From a virus: DNA of 20,144 bases. Location: IMG/VR virus record IMGVR_UViG_3300028557_002461, positions 1 through 20,144 of that record. One strand, 5' to 3'. Positions 10,580-19,702 of this stretch are shown one piece after another (positions within the stretch are counted from its first letter, which is position 1; each line of letters opens with the position of its first letter). Below the pieces are notes generated by a model. The model worked only from the letters and a program-made list of their open reading frames with translations. It was not told the origin of the DNA and did not search any database. The translations under genes and the position numbers were made by a program.

Positions 10580-11503
10580 ATGAACATTAAGATGACCTCA
10601 ACAAAGTTTCAACCGGTTAATTCGGTTGTGATCCCTGAAGTGTATAGTCGGCGCATGAAGAGTGGCAATGAAAAAATTGACGCTCTGTTTGGCGGCGGCA
10701 TTTTGCCTGGTAGTTCTATAACCTTGACTGCTCGTGCAGGCATGGGTAAAACTACTTTTGTGCTGCAGCTCATTGAAAGTCTGCATAACAACAACCACCG
10801 AGTTGGTTACTGCTCTTCTGAGGAATCTGTTGCCCAGCTGGCAATGACGTGCAAGCGTCTGCAAGTTGAAAATGTTCAAGTGTGCAATGAATCAGATGTG
10901 GATACCATATCCAAGTACATGGATGACATGGATGTCATTGTCATTGATTCATTTCAAGGCCTGGTCAAAGGCAACAAGCGTGGACGTGAACTTGAGAAGT
11001 ACTGCATTGAAAGACTTGTTGTGCGTGCCAAAGAAACTGAGTGTGCAGTCATTTTGATATGTCACAATACCAAAGCTGGTGGCATCAAAGGATCTTCGTT
11101 GATCATTCATGCTGTGGATGTGAACATTAGCATCAACATGATCAAGGATGCAGATATGAATGCTCGAGCCATCAGATTTGATAAAAACCGATTTGGTCCT
11201 GCATCTGAACTGGAATGTTTCATTGAGTACAGTGGTTACGACTTTGAAACTGAGGTTGTAGTTGACAAGGACGAAGCAACCAAGACCTCCAAGTCAGACA
11301 AAAAGAAGGAACAGCGGGAATGCATTCTCAAGCTCAATACCATCACCCTGCCTGATGTTTGCAGAGAGTTGAGCATTGACTCAACGCGTGCAGGGTTTTT
11401 GCTGCGCGAGCTTCAGAACGAGGGCAAGATTGTCAAAGAAGGCCGTGGTGTAGAAGCCAGATGGATCAAGTCACAACTTCAAGTCACTGTGGTGCAGAGT
11501 TAA
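10580..11503 (+). CDS. RadA/Sms-like RecA-fold ATPase with C-terminal winged helix (copy 1)
   Basis: A 307-aa ATPase. Residues 37-59 hold FGGGILPGSSITLTARAGMG plus KTT, a Walker A loop (Lys57) in which the usual first Gly is Ala. GYCSSEES matches the RadA VSGEES region. VIVIDSFQG is Walker B (Asp123). CHNTKAGGIKG corresponds to the RadA GHVTKEG region. KNRFG (residues 202-206) is the RadA signature. The Cys4 zinc finger and Lon-like C-terminal domain of bacterial RadA are missing. Instead residues about 245-300 look like a winged helix (VCRELSIDSTRAGFLLRELQ). Likely roles are recombination, branch migration or replication-fork processing on phage DNA. It is about 70% identical by hand count to the protein at 16513. 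Confidence 0.85.
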   Translation: MNIKMTSTKFQPVNSVVIPEVYSRRMKSGNEKIDALFGGGILPGSSITLTARAGMGKTTFVLQLIESLHNNNHRVGYCSSEESVAQLAMTCKRLQVENVQVCNESDVDTISKYMDDMDVIVIDSFQGLVKGNKRGRELEKYCIERLVVRAKETECAVILICHNTKAGGIKGSSLIIHAVDVNISINMIKDADMNARAIRFDKNRFGPASELECFIEYSGYDFETEVVVDKDEATKTSKSDKKKEQRECILKLNTITLPDVCRELSIDSTRAGFLLRELQNEGKIVKEGRGVEARWIKSQLQVTVVQS

Positions 11504-11911: not shown

Positions 11912-11919
11912 TATTTATT
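11912..11919 (-). promoter_or_regulatory. Late-type promoter motif AATAAATA
   Basis: AATAAATA on the minus strand, 5 nt before the ATG at 11906. It matches the T4-like late element seen at other genes here. Confidence 0.55.
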
Positions 11920-14110
11920 CTAAGATTATTAATGCAGACATTGCTGAATGATTACCACATTGAAGATAATAATTACCAGGAGCTTGTCCGGGCGATATAA
12001 CCCAAACTAAATCTCCAGAACCAGAACCGTCTCCTGTCACTCCTGCGGTTACCCTAGAGGCAGGTGGTCCGTAATAGCCTGTTTGCCCCTCTACTGTAAC
12101 TATATATAAAGGATGAGAGGCTCCTAAATTTAATTTAAATGTATAGGTTAGTCCTCTCTTACAAGTTATAGGCTTTCCAGAATTAGATGTAACTTTACCT
12201 GCAACTCTATACGTGTTACCGTAAAAGCCTATATCGAGAGGTTGCCCGCTTCCATTTGAATAGATGTTAAAAACCAAGGGCTGATACGTATCCGCAAGAT
12301 CATCATTTACTTGATAACCTAAATCTAATAAACTACCTAATGTAATTCTGGATAGAGGTTGATCGTAAGCTCCTTCACTCTGCGGGGTCATTAATTCATC
12401 ATTCAGCCCAGGGGCTCCCGGAAAAGAATTACCATAATAATTTCTATTATCTGAACCATATGTTGCATCTGTATTGTACCCTTCATCCCAATGAGATGCT
12501 ATGGATCCAAATCCCCTTCCATTTTCTATAGGTATTGCTGTTAATGAAAGGTTGAATGCTAAGTTGTACGCGGAAACTGCTGCACTTCTTCCAATTAGTG
12601 AAGAACAGCAATCTCGAGCTGCTTGAAATGCTCCGTCTCCTATGTATCTTGTTGTCCCATCAATTGTTGTAGAAGAACCATAATCAGAAGAACTTCTTGT
12701 TCCTCCTAATGCACTACATGTATAAAATAAATTTTTTGATGCTCCTAATCCTAAGGGATTTGTACTGTTATCTCCTGCTCCTACTCGATAGCCCCTATAT
12801 AAAATAGAAGGCGATGTAGTAGAATCTAATTTAAACCAATTAGTACCTATGCCCAAACAATGTCCAATTTCATGAAGGGCGGTATAATAAAATGTATTTC
12901 TATTGTTAACTGTAGTTTCTAGCACGTCTAAATCGGTGTAATATGAATTAAAAACAATTGATGCTGTAAATGGAACATCCCATTGAGTTGTACTTGTTAC
13001 TCCTACTCTGCGTGTACCGGTTATACCTGCAGCTCCTAGCGTTAAACTTACACTATCATAATAACTACTAACATACATTACAAGGGTTGTATTAGGATTA
13101 CCATTCATAGGATTAGATACTAGTTCATAGCCATTACTAATAGTTGAGTCTTGTGTTCTTAATGCAAAAGTGTTACCTGCTAATACATTTCCCCACCTAT
13201 CTATGGCAGATAAAAATGTGTTTGTTGTGGCTAAACTAAAGCCTGGAGTTTTATCAAAAATAGCAGATATTTGATATCCTACAGTTACATATACATCTTT
13301 ACCACTTCCAAGATAATTAACAAAATATCTACCTCGTCCAATCGGGTTAAAGTTATTTTGTGTAGGAGTAATAGTGGGAGTAATAGATGGTGTAAGACTT
13401 ATGGTTGGAGTGGGAGTTCCAGTTGGTGTTATCGAAATAGTAGGAGTTACAGAAATAGTTGGTGTTGGAGTAATTCCAGTTGTTTGTGTAATTGTAGGGG
13501 TTAAAGTAATTGTGGGGGTAATAGAGATTGTTGGAGTTGGTGTAATTGTTGAGGTTTGAGAAATAGTGGGTGTAATCGTTATAGTTGGAGTCAAGGTAAG
13601 AGTAGGTGTAATGCTAGGAGTTATAGAAGTTGTAGGTGTATTTGTGGGTGTAGAAGAAGGGGTAATGGTGTTTGTGGGTGTAATGGTTGGTGTAAGAGAG
13701 ATAGTTGGTGTATTTGTTATTGTAGGTGTTACGGATGGGGTTAATGTAGGTGTTTGAGTTTGAGTTAAAGAGATTGTTGGGGTAACAGTAACCGAAGGGG
13801 TTATGCTACTAGTAGGAGTAACGGTTTGTGTAATAGTTGAAGAGGGTGTTACAGTAACAGTTGGAGTATTAGGAGGAGTTGAAGTAGGGGTTTCTGAAGG
13901 CGTTATAGTTGGTGTCAATGAAATAGTTGGCGTTAAGCTTATTGTAGGAGTTATAGAAGGTGTTGGTGTGGGGGTAGCAGGTTGAACATCTCCTCTACTC
14001 TTATTAGCAGCAGAATTTAAATTTAATACTCTTTCAAGAGAAGTTAGATTACTAGCAGCTCGGACTCGTGCGCGGTTCAAATCTTGAAAGCTTGGATAGA
14101 AAACGGCCAT
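11915..14110 (-). CDS. Stalked leishmanolysin-like metalloprotease with cupredoxin domain
   Basis: A 731-aa predicted virion surface enzyme. Residues 1-44 form a helical head similar to the 214-aa protein. Residues 45-250 are a Pro/Thr stalk. Residues about 255-605 match a leishmanolysin-type (M8-like) metalloprotease: HEIGHCLGIG supplies His413, Glu414 and His417; SHWDEG gives the distant third ligand His540; DELM gives the Met-turn Met574; LSRITLGSLLDLGYQV closes the fold. Residues about 611-731 look like a cupredoxin with candidate copper ligands His666, Cys718, His721 and Met724 (YYLQCGNHSAM). No signal peptide is present, so delivery would be on the virion. Likely substrates are host surface proteins; this is inference. 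Codons are AT-rich, unlike the left-hand stalk genes. Confidence 0.85.
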   Translation of the reverse strand: MAVFYPSFQDLNRARVRAASNLTSLERVLNLNSAANKSRGDVQPATPTPTPSITPTISLTPTISLTPTITPSETPTSTPPNTPTVTVTPSSTITQTVTPTSSITPSVTVTPTISLTQTQTPTLTPSVTPTITNTPTISLTPTITPTNTITPSSTPTNTPTTSITPSITPTLTLTPTITITPTISQTSTITPTPTISITPTITLTPTITQTTGITPTPTISVTPTISITPTGTPTPTISLTPSITPTITPTQNNFNPIGRGRYFVNYLGSGKDVYVTVGYQISAIFDKTPGFSLATTNTFLSAIDRWGNVLAGNTFALRTQDSTISNGYELVSNPMNGNPNTTLVMYVSSYYDSVSLTLGAAGITGTRRVGVTSTTQWDVPFTASIVFNSYYTDLDVLETTVNNRNTFYYTALHEIGHCLGIGTNWFKLDSTTSPSILYRGYRVGAGDNSTNPLGLGASKNLFYTCSALGGTRSSSDYGSSTTIDGTTRYIGDGAFQAARDCCSSLIGRSAAVSAYNLAFNLSLTAIPIENGRGFGSIASHWDEGYNTDATYGSDNRNYYGNSFPGAPGLNDELMTPQSEGAYDQPLSRITLGSLLDLGYQVNDDLADTYQPLVFNIYSNGSGQPLDIGFYGNTYRVAGKVTSNSGKPITCKRGLTYTFKLNLGASHPLYIVTVEGQTGYYGPPASRVTAGVTGDGSGSGDLVWVISPGQAPGNYYLQCGNHSAMSALIILE
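13361..13978. repeat. Low-complexity Pro/Thr codon repeat (731-aa protein)
   Basis: This tract encodes the third stalk. The amino-acid pattern matches the two tracts on the left, but the codons are AT-rich (GTAGGAGTAATAG style) rather than GTGGGTGT style, so the tract was not copied recently from them. Confidence 0.85.
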
Positions 14111-16512: not shown

Positions 16513-17430
16513 ATGAACGTTAAATTACAAAGCACTAAATTCGTATCAATTAAAGATGTAACTATTCCCGATGTTTTCTATCGGAGAATGCAAACGGGTA
16601 TCGAGAAACTCGATGCAATGTTTGGGGGAGGTATTCTTCCTGGTTCTTCTATTACATTAACTGCACGAGCTGGTCTCGGAAAGACCACGCTTGTACTGCA
16701 AATGTTAGAAAGACTGGTAAAGAGCGGTAAACGTGTTGGTTACTGCTCCTCAGAAGAATCTATTGCCCAGCTTGCTATGACCTGTAAACGACTAAATGTC
16801 GAGAACGTTCAGGTATGTAACGAGGGTAATGTCGATAAGATCTCTAATCATATGAAAGATCTCGATATTATTGTTGTTGATTCGTTTCAAGGTCTTATAA
16901 AAGGTAATCTTCGAGGACGAGAGCTAGAGAAGTATTGTATTGAAAGACTTGTAGTTAACGCTAAAGAGACTGAATGCGCGATTGTATTAATCTGTCATAA
17001 TACTAAAGCGGGTGGAATTAAGGGTAGTTCTCTTATTATTCATGCTGTAGATGTTAACGTTAGTATTCATCCTATCAAGGAAGCAGAAGCAAATGCTCGT
17101 GTCATAACCTTTGATAAGAACCGTTTTGGTCCTTCTGCAGATGTAGAGTGTTATATTCAGTATAGTGGGTATGATTTTGAATCTGAAGTAATTGTTGAAG
17201 AAGAAAATACTTCTAAAACTGCTCGTAAGAAAGATCAGCGTAATAAGATTTTGTCTATGAATGGCGATATTACGCTCCTTGAAGTGTGTAAACAACTTAG
17301 TATTGATAGTACTCGTGCTGGGTTCCTTCTTCGTGAGTTACAGAATGAGGGCAAGCTGGTCAAAGATGGTAGAGGAGCGGATTCGATCTGGAAGAAGAAC
17401 GAGCTTCAGATTACTGTTGCACAGAACTAA
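16513..17430 (+). CDS. RadA/Sms-like RecA-fold ATPase with C-terminal winged helix (copy 2)
   Basis: A 305-aa paralogue of the gene at 10580, about 70% identical by hand count and nearly gap-free for 230 residues. All motifs are kept: Walker A ARAGLGKTT (Lys57), SSEES, Walker B IIVVDSFQG, CHNTKAGGIKG, KNRFG and the winged-helix end SIDSTRAGFLLRELQNEG. Divergence is highest at the N-terminus and in the charged linker near 230-245. Codons are clearly different from copy 1 (AT-rich third positions here). As with copy 1, the zinc finger and Lon-like domains of bacterial RadA are absent. Two copies may form hetero-oligomers, act at different times, or reflect joining of two related genomes. Confidence 0.85.
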   Translation: MNVKLQSTKFVSIKDVTIPDVFYRRMQTGIEKLDAMFGGGILPGSSITLTARAGLGKTTLVLQMLERLVKSGKRVGYCSSEESIAQLAMTCKRLNVENVQVCNEGNVDKISNHMKDLDIIVVDSFQGLIKGNLRGRELEKYCIERLVVNAKETECAIVLICHNTKAGGIKGSSLIIHAVDVNVSIHPIKEAEANARVITFDKNRFGPSADVECYIQYSGYDFESEVIVEEENTSKTARKKDQRNKILSMNGDITLLEVCKQLSIDSTRAGFLLRELQNEGKLVKDGRGADSIWKKNELQITVAQN

Positions 17431-17450: not shown

Positions 17451-17831
17451 ATGATGAACCTTAAGACCGCACAACTACCTGAACAAGCGCCTTTTGTAGG
17501 CCAGCACGTTACAGAATTTCACTATACAGATCGTGATGCTTGGGAGGTAATTGAGGTTATGAGCCCTCGAAGGATAAAAATTCGAGAGTTTGATGCAGAG
17601 TGTACCCTTAAACCTAAAGATTTTCATCCTGGAGGCTTCTGTGGTCACTTTGCTGATAATCATTCACAGGAATATAAATTTACAAGTAATCCTAAAAATC
17701 AAGTAAAGGTACTTAGCTGGCGCTCTAAAGCTAAACGCTGGGCTGAAGTAGGACAAAGGACTCAGTATAGTCTGTTCGGCTTACATAGGAAAGGTGAGCA
17801 AGCTGTTAAGTTTTATGATTACAACTTCTAA
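17451..17831 (+). CDS. Conserved-looking unknown protein, 126 aa, leaderless
   Basis: Starts MMNLKTAQLPEQAPFVGQHV. The core HVTEFHYTDRDAWEVIEVMS followed by PRRIKIREFDAE looks like a small beta-barrel seen in phage hypothetical proteins, where a strand-turn-strand with YTDRDA-type wording recurs. Further on, HPGGFCGHFADNHSQEY holds three His and a Cys that could bind metal. It ends HRKGEQAVKFYDYNF. Function unknown. The next gene overlaps its end by 17 nt. Confidence 0.75.
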   Translation: MMNLKTAQLPEQAPFVGQHVTEFHYTDRDAWEVIEVMSPRRIKIREFDAECTLKPKDFHPGGFCGHFADNHSQEYKFTSNPKNQVKVLSWRSKAKRWAEVGQRTQYSLFGLHRKGEQAVKFYDYNF

Positions 17832-18671: not shown

Positions 18672-18948
18672 GAGTAAACAAATTCAAGAGACGATTGAGC
18701 TAATCAAACAGCTAGACCTCATTCAAGATCAATTCAAGTTTTACGAAGAAGAAGGTGATAGGCTTACAATAGAGCACATGACTATTATTAAAAATAAAGA
18801 GCATTTATTCCCCGAGGGTGCAGAGAAACTAAAAACGATTGATAAGAAATTAGACGAACTTACAATTAGGTTTGAGAAAGATAATAGTCTGTTTAATAAA
18901 ATTTTAGTTAAGGTAAGTAGTTTGTTAAAAAAGCACAATAATGTTTAA
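18664..18948 (+). CDS. Coiled-coil protein, 94 aa
   Basis: Starts MDKSKQIQETIELIKQLDLI. It is almost entirely charged helix with heptad-like spacing of Leu and Ile (ETIELIKQLDLIQDQFKFYE, KLKTIDKKLDELTIRFEKD), so a dimeric coiled coil is likely. ATG overlaps the stop of the membrane gene by 8 nt, and its own end overlaps the next ATG by 8 nt: a chain of coupled genes. A partner role for the preceding membrane protein is possible. No family recognised. Confidence 0.7.
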   Translation: MDKSKQIQETIELIKQLDLIQDQFKFYEEEGDRLTIEHMTIIKNKEHLFPEGAEKLKTIDKKLDELTIRFEKDNSLFNKILVKVSSLLKKHNNV

Positions 18949-19273
18949 AAGAAAACCGAAAGGAGATCTTTTCAACTTTGAGGAGTTTACTGTGTATAGC
19001 CCTAAGCAGTTTAATAATAACTTAAGCATAGAAGATAAAGACATAACGTTCTATATTAAAGTATGCACCAATTCGAATAGAGCATTTACATGTCCTTTTC
19101 CTCATATAGATAACACGGTAGGTAGTGAAGAACTTAGTAATAAGGAAGTTAAGAAGATTGTTGACTTTATTAACAATACTCCAGAAGCCATTGTATATAC
19201 CTCGGAGTATTCTATTGAAAATGTTGATGGTAGGAGATTAGAGATGTATTACGGAAAGCTTGATAATATCTAA
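18941..19273 (+). CDS. Unknown 110-aa protein
   Basis: Starts MFKRKPKGDLFNFEEFTVYS, coupled by 8-nt overlap to the coiled-coil gene. It is a soluble alpha/beta protein with FYIKVCTNSNRAFTCPFPHI, a helix KEVKKIVDFINNTPEAIV and a strand-rich end (YTSEYSIENVDGRRLEMYYG). Two Cys and one His are clustered (residues near 42-55) but do not form a known metal motif. The promoter of the downstream small RNA begins inside its last codons. Confidence 0.65.
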   Translation: MFKRKPKGDLFNFEEFTVYSPKQFNNNLSIEDKDITFYIKVCTNSNRAFTCPFPHIDNTVGSEELSNKEVKKIVDFINNTPEAIVYTSEYSIENVDGRRLEMYYGKLDNI

Positions 19274-19287
19274 TGTTCCTACATAAT
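19260..19287 (+). promoter_or_regulatory. Sigma70-type promoter for the small RNA
   Basis: TTGATA at 19260-19265, 16-nt spacer ending TTCCTA, CATAAT at 19282-19287. Transcription should begin near 19294. Unlike the other promoters of this class, there is no start codon at that position. Confidence 0.75.
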
Positions 19288-19293
19288 AAGTTT

Positions 19294-19393
19294 ATTGTCC
19301 GAGCAATCGGAGGGTAAGCCGGTTCCCCGTTAAGAAACTGGTCATCATCTTGAGTTTTGCTGTTCTCAAGTAAATCAAAAACAGCCTTTTTTT
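19294..19393 (+). ncRNA. Predicted phage small RNA with GNRA hairpin and terminal pseudoknot
   Basis: This is the one sizeable stretch between plus-strand genes without a convincing ORF, and it has its own promoter and a 3' end rich in T. In order: hairpin TCCGA-GCAA-TCGGA (19298-19311) with a GNRA loop; hairpin GCCGGTT/AACTGGT (19318-19342, with two G-U pairs); an H-type pseudoknot with stem 1 CTTGAG/CTCAAG (19349-19354 with 19365-19370), loop 1 TTTT, stem 2 GCTGTT/AACAGC (19359-19364 with 19380-19385), no bases between the stems, loop 3 TAAATCAAA; then C and seven T. Stem 2 with the T run can act as the terminator. The next gene's promoter starts 12 nt later, so this is a separate unit. Function unknown; it does not match an RNA family I can name. 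Confidence 0.65.
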
Positions 19394-19438: not shown

Positions 19439-19702
19439 ATGATGAAAAAACAAACGAACAAAGAATATAGTCTATTGGTGTTTATGAAAGCTCAGCACAA
19501 GTATACCGATTCAGAGGTTCAATTAGAAACGCTGTGTAAAGAGTTTAATGGACGAGCGGTAGGGGGAGGTACAGATCTATGTACAGGTAAGCGAGATCAA
19601 CAGTTTGCCTTCTTTAATAAAGCTGGTGCAAAAGCCTTTCTTAAGCATCCTTTTACCAAAGCAGTTACCCTTAAAGATTACGACCTAGTAGAGGTAGATT
19701 AA
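19439..19702 (+). CDS. Unknown 87-aa protein, leaderless
   Basis: Starts MMKKQTNKEYSLLVFMKAQH. The pattern of a strand (YSLLVFMKAQ), a helix (SEVQLETLCKEFNG), a glycine-rich turn (RAVGGGTDLCTG), a strand (DQQFAFFNKAGAKAFLKH) and a last strand resembles a small ferredoxin-like alpha/beta domain. No catalytic or DNA-binding motif is evident. It sits directly after the small RNA unit and before two further small genes. Confidence 0.7.
   Translation: MMKKQTNKEYSLLVFMKAQHKYTDSEVQLETLCKEFNGRAVGGGTDLCTGKRDQQFAFFNKAGAKAFLKHPFTKAVTLKDYDLVEVD

Follow-up and report, generated by a model that had tools for sequence, protein, structure and literature searches.

A tandem double-pseudoknot RNA in large T4-like phages carries an invariant linker complementary to the predicted 5' ends of many leaderless mRNAs

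The RNA locus

The window analysed here is IMG/VR virus record IMGVR_UViG_3300028557_002461, a stretch of 20,144 bases. Its plus strand carries a noncoding RNA at positions 19294–19393, recognized from the sequence, a covariance model and homologues, with a predicted +1 at 19294 and an end formed by a run of T residues. A sigma70-type promoter, TTGATA-N16-CATAAT (19260–19287, plus strand), lies upstream, with TTGATA at 19260–19265, CATAAT at 19282–19287 and the A at 19294 six bases farther on. The promoter of the next gene is spaced identically (TTGACC, 16 nucleotides, CATAAT, 6 nucleotides, ATG at 19439). The RNA promoter also has a TTCC element in its spacer at -18 to -15, which recurs across the leaderless genes of this phage. 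A preliminary description of this DNA had assigned the RNA a promoter of the protein-gene class and noted the lack of a start codon at the transcription start; the spacing and the TTCC element confirm the former, and no ATG is present at 19294.

The RNA has a 110-aa neighbour (18941–19273, plus strand), which the PADLOC model HEC-02B matches weakly (E 6e-4). Elsewhere in the window are two paralogous RecA/DnaB-like ATPases of KaiC type (10580–11503 and 16513–17430, plus strand), both preceded by leaderless-type promoters, and, on the minus strand at 11915–14110, an apparently virion- or fibre-type protein of 731 aa with proline-threonine repeats and a metalloprotease-like motif, HEIGHCLGIG. 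Searches for tRNA and tmRNA in the window, and for tmRNA in its relatives, found none.

Structure of the RNA

The RNA begins with a hairpin, P1 (UCCGA-GCAA-UCGGA, 19298–19311), followed by an H-type pseudoknot, PK1 (19311–19341), in which AGGG (19311–19314) pairs with CCC (19326–19328) to form S1 and CCGGUU (19319–19324) pairs with AACUGG (19336–19341) to form S2, with UAAG as L1. A single-stranded linker, UCAUCAU (19342–19348), separates PK1 from a second H-type pseudoknot, PK2 (19349–19385), which consists of CUUGAG (19349–19354), the L1 loop UUUU, GCUGUU (19359–19364), CUCAAG (19365–19370), the L3 loop UAAAUCAAA (19371–19379) and AACAGC (19380–19385). Here CUUGAG pairs with CUCAAG (S1) and GCUGUU with AACAGC (S2). 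A C and seven T residues follow (19386–19393) and together with S2 of PK2 resemble a terminator, one that a simple terminator scan did not flag at the RNA 3' end because the loop is long. The 3' pseudoknot in the preliminary description, with its 6-bp stems, U loop, 9-nt loop and T7, thus agrees with the sequence base for base. The GNRA hairpin described there is real in the window as the GCAA hairpin, but homologues differ in its sequence and length, and what had been taken for a plain second hairpin is in fact PK1.

The nested fold of the 100 nucleotides is ordinary (folding z-score -0.97). A 6-bp H-type pseudoknot with the geometry of PK2 occurred in one of 1000 dinucleotide shuffles of these nucleotides; since two such geometries are found on the whole 20-kb plus strand and zero to two in shuffled windows, the geometry by itself proves little. 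We accept the pseudoknot structure because the homologues covary. We also considered a hidden peptide and rejected it, as the short frames from possible starts differ between homologues (for example, the reading frame in L008 vs that in L009).

Homologues and covariation

Loci retrieved by way of neighbouring genes contain clear counterparts of the RNA, and we also searched for it with the covariance model. Full homologues are present in 14 other IMG/VR records (E 7e-9 or better), with one strong copy in each, and a partial homologue is found in one further record, G022. G007 and G020, contigs of 217 and 230 kb, contain a single copy each. A scan of IMG/VR for the PK2 pattern recovered known family members only, and in GTDB genomes it gave three chance matches that the covariance model did not support. 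The exact 5' pattern of the RNA was not found in IMG/VR, nor did direct DNA comparison with named phages give a match, and in four T4-like control phages the model found weak matches only (best E 0.04). Searches of Rfam 15 at gathering and loose thresholds matched no family in the window or the homologues, apart from tRNAs elsewhere.

Thirteen distinct sequences were aligned manually on the proposed structure. Standard pairs occupy 255 of the 260 base-pair cells (98.1%), a figure that hand alignment favours; controls in which the register was slid have 29–47% of cells paired, and the covariation score is 0.452 vs at most 0.079 with the partner slid, a gap far larger than the bias of hand alignment can explain. 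Two-sided changes occur in 13 of the 22 pairs and all four stems are compensated, so that each pseudoknot consists of two interleaved stems with compensatory changes. Paired changes in both stems of the 3' pseudoknot, proposed in the preliminary description as a check, are therefore present in the homologues, and the uncompensated changes that would have told against it are rare (5 of 260 cells are unpaired). The structure is well supported and the family is almost certainly real. It belongs to no known RNA family and constitutes a new one, a tandem double pseudoknot supported by covariation with many compensated pairs.

The core consensus reads AGGK-UAAG-S2-C-MCCU-(A-rich)-S2', the linker UCAUCAU, PK2 with a U-rich L1 and an A-rich L3, and the T-run. 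The PK1 loops, L1 UAAG and the A-rich L3, are conserved among homologues, and UCAUCAU is invariant in every homologue that retains both pseudoknots. The region 5' of PK1 holds variable hairpins in the relatives, mostly behind a near-invariant hairpin, P0 (UUCGGAGGCCGACAG), which replaces P1 or is added to it in most relatives. P0 includes GGAGG, differs by hardly a letter between divergent phages, and within each genome that has it is found at this RNA alone. A search of IMG/VR for a P0 15-mer gave 23 stretches, nine of which are this RNA and 14 unrelated. The window and L011 lack P0, and both have their own promoter. In L172, L173 and L177 a longer 5' domain, absent from the window, precedes the RNA core; it contains a covarying-looking hairpin (CATGG/CCATG, CGTGG/CCACG) and a conserved GCAACGCGAYC. 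The partial homologue (L203 in G022, 11164–11299) keeps P0 and PK1 and has an ordinary terminator-like hairpin in place of PK2 and the linker.

Genomic context

The genes around the RNA vary, three families being found upstream of it and a number of different genes downstream, which argues that the RNA is a self-standing module of one phage group. Several genomes besides the window provide it with its own promoter. In several relatives it lies 26–83 nucleotides behind an ORF without an evident promoter; in L008, L009, L010 and L012 its T-run directly abuts the ATG of genes from a 65-aa family, and in L182 and L184 the T-run is weak. Compensation in four stems, the presence of own promoters and the changing downstream gene strongly support the earlier view that this is a structured RNA of the phage in its own right, with a pseudoknot at its 3' end. 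The carriers are large, uncultured T4-like water phages with a T4-like tail sheath and DNA polymerase, the latter about 33% identical to that of Kyanoviridae. A search for isolates of the group found none.

Complementarity of the linker to leaderless gene starts

The linker is the exact reverse complement of AUGAUGA. We counted starts in about 0.9 Mb of sequence from 11 records that bear the RNA, defining a leaderless start as a promoter 4–9 nucleotides before the ATG of an ORF of at least 60 aa. There are about 170 leaderless promoters, of the type TTGAC-N16-TATAAT and mostly with the ATG six bases past the -10 box. ATGATGA stands at 59 of 172 leaderless starts vs none of 163 Shine-Dalgarno (SD)-led ORFs and 10 of 1443 others (Fisher p 8e-54), where the ORFs are mechanical calls and the comparison classes thus include false starts. 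After removal of duplicates, inclusion of record G005 and exclusion of G022, the complement of UCAUCAU occurs in the first 20 nucleotides of 52 of 169 leaderless mRNAs, and other 7-mers of the window RNA have at most three such matches. Unrelated phages (980 kb) have three leaderless starts and two Kyanoviridae have seven, none of them ATGATGA. In G022, which has lost the linker and PK2, ATGATGA is found at one of seven leaderless starts, and at none of 12 in G014, G015 and G018, contigs with no detected RNA that are fragments and hence weak evidence. We searched the homologues for joint changes of linker and gene starts and found none.

Across the genomes studied, genes that start with ATGATGA share the strand of the RNA, mostly lie no more than about 20 kb away, and are small (median 93 aa). 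Candidate targets in the window, both on the plus strand, are the leaderless ATGATGA starts of an 87-aa gene directly downstream of the RNA (19439–19445; ORF 19439–19702) and of a 126-aa gene (17451–17457; ORF 17451–17831). About two thirds of the leaderless genes do not start with AUGAUGA. The promoters of the ATGATGA genes are more conserved than other leaderless promoters in TTGAC, the TTC element and a G at -2, and conservation past +1 peaks over bases 1–8. AGGAG precedes the ATG directly in some of these genes; it lies upstream of the expected +1 and we therefore read it as a promoter discriminator. Leaderless initiation, or the promoter as such, may favour the motif AUGAUGA. The candidate targets and the RNA share one gene island, where the spread of a promoter by duplication could add to the ATGATGA count.

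The linker is computed to be 79% unpaired even in an ensemble free of pseudoknots, and its duplex with the target is predicted at -6 to -8 kcal/mol, seven base pairs being a short seed. The RNA thus has what is expected of an antisense small RNA (sRNA), a conserved unpaired seed complementary to candidate target mRNAs beyond chance.

A possible mode of action

From the computed structure, conservation, complementarity and clustering we infer a transcript, its pairing, repression and timing as follows. The two H-type pseudoknots would hold the 7-nt linker UCAUCAU open. A cluster of small and probably early genes would be transcribed from strong promoters with +1 on the A of the ATG, giving mRNAs that start 5'-AUGAUGA, and the linker would pair with their first seven bases, start codon included. 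Ribosomes bind leaderless mRNA via the 5' AUG, on which initiation depends (PMC9031893). Pairing of this kind would keep ribosomes off the 5' AUG and damp the whole gene set together; as it covers the AUG and leaderless initiation needs a 5' AUG, the simplest expectation is repression. The RNA and its candidate targets share a promoter class, which suggests co-expression, and in the window this arrangement could act as a built-in feed-forward brake.

Judged from the complementarity, the linker probably pairs in trans with AUGAUGA mRNAs. That the RNA as a whole acts in trans by pairing with leaderless 5' ends, most simply as a repressor, we rate at about an even chance. The preliminary description had offered a ligand sensor, a regulatory antisense RNA or an RNA that sequesters a host factor. 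The antisense function fits best because the invariant linker complements the 5' end of many leaderless mRNAs, and the variable downstream gene speaks against the ligand sensor.

Alternative functions

Binding or sequestration of a host or phage protein, or of the ribosome, would account for the near-perfect P0 with its GGAGG, for the conserved UAAG and A-rich L3 of PK1 and for a single copy per large genome. The linker and P0 would then be protein or 16S sites and the match to AUGAUGA a coincidence; however, among the 7-mers of the window RNA the linker alone is complementary to many leaderless starts (52 vs at most three), and the absence of P0 from the window and L011 indicates that this hairpin is not essential everywhere. 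We regard such a role as rather unlikely. The same linker complementarity and common promoter class, together with the SD-like GGAGG in P0 of most relatives, would also suit an RNA that pairs with AUGAUGA mRNAs and helps them, by shielding the 5' end from decay or by bringing the mRNA to the ribosome. The start codon must be free for initiator tRNA, however, and the pairing would cover it; P0, moreover, is not universal, and we find a helping role improbable. Little credence attaches also to a 3'-end module, a pseudoknotted terminator that stabilizes the upstream mRNA without activity in trans. Its terminator-like S2 of PK2 with the T-run, and the position behind an ORF without an evident promoter in several relatives, speak for it, but the RNA is preceded by a promoter of its own in the window and in several relatives, occurs once per large genome despite many operons, carries an invariant linker and a PK1 that a terminator does not need, and has a weak T-run in L182 and L184.

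Two further readings are very improbable. Tandem pseudoknots of about 31–37 nucleotides whose loops are rich in U and in A are reminiscent of ToxI units (PMC5086642); the RNA could be an antitoxin decoy directed at a type III toxin-antitoxin (abortive infection) system of the host, in the manner of the pseudo-ToxI of phage phiTE. Yet PK1 and PK2 differ in sequence and are not tandem repeats of one unit, there is no conserved cleavage sequence between them, and the window neighbours include no good match to a toxin model, only weak hits to HEC-02B and DpdD. For a cis-acting riboswitch or ligand sensor, the contact of the T-run with the ATG of the 65-aa gene family would be a natural arrangement, but the downstream gene is a different one in the window and other relatives, and no Rfam riboswitch was matched.

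Relation to RegA and other known systems

In phage T4 the protein RegA and the ribosome compete for the AUG of about 30 early mRNAs; as of 2010, every T4-related genome then sequenced was reported to encode RegA (PMC3014915). The RegA profile (PF01818) matches four T4-like controls, a coliphage, a pelagiphage, a cyanophage and phage C48C1, at E 1e-45 to 1e-75. It detects nothing in the 217-kb G007 and 230-kb G020, an absence that is no more than suggestive because the sliding clamp model, weak even in most controls, also fails in these two contigs, and that could reflect divergence. The candidate RNA and RegA are alike in that one trans-acting regulator would cover the AUG region of many early mRNAs in the same broad phage lineage. 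They are unlike in that RegA is a protein, and at most the RNA works in the same manner without being a member of that family. We tentatively suggest, as a possibility with somewhat less than even odds, that a dedicated phage RNA recognizes leaderless mRNAs as a class via their 5' AUGAUGA and switches an entire early regulon, in place of the RegA protein of other T4-like phages. If true, a regulatory RNA would stand where related phages use a protein.

Bacterial trans-acting antisense sRNAs share with this RNA a short single-stranded seed, many targets and a terminator-like 3' end, but its scaffold is two tandem pseudoknots. Known antisense sRNAs act chiefly by blocking the SD or leader region, and Hfq often assists them; a search of these phages found no encoded Hfq. 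Regulation of leaderless mRNA is poorly understood, and the relevant passages of a 2022 review (PMC9031893) expect control by sRNAs, naming it as a possibility alone without giving a case. A compact RNA with a 7-nt seed that matches the 5' end common to a set of genes is a directly testable system.

The type III antitoxins ToxI, AntiQ and CptI and the phage pseudo-ToxI are likewise built of H-type pseudoknot units of about 35 nucleotides. In contrast, the phage RNA described here has no repeats and no toxin gene, and possesses an invariant linker complementary to mRNA. The T4-type gene 32 leader pseudoknot is also H-type, belongs to a T4-like phage and controls translation; however, it acts in cis in the autoregulation of gp32 (PMC3014915), whereas the RNA of the window is tied to no single gene.
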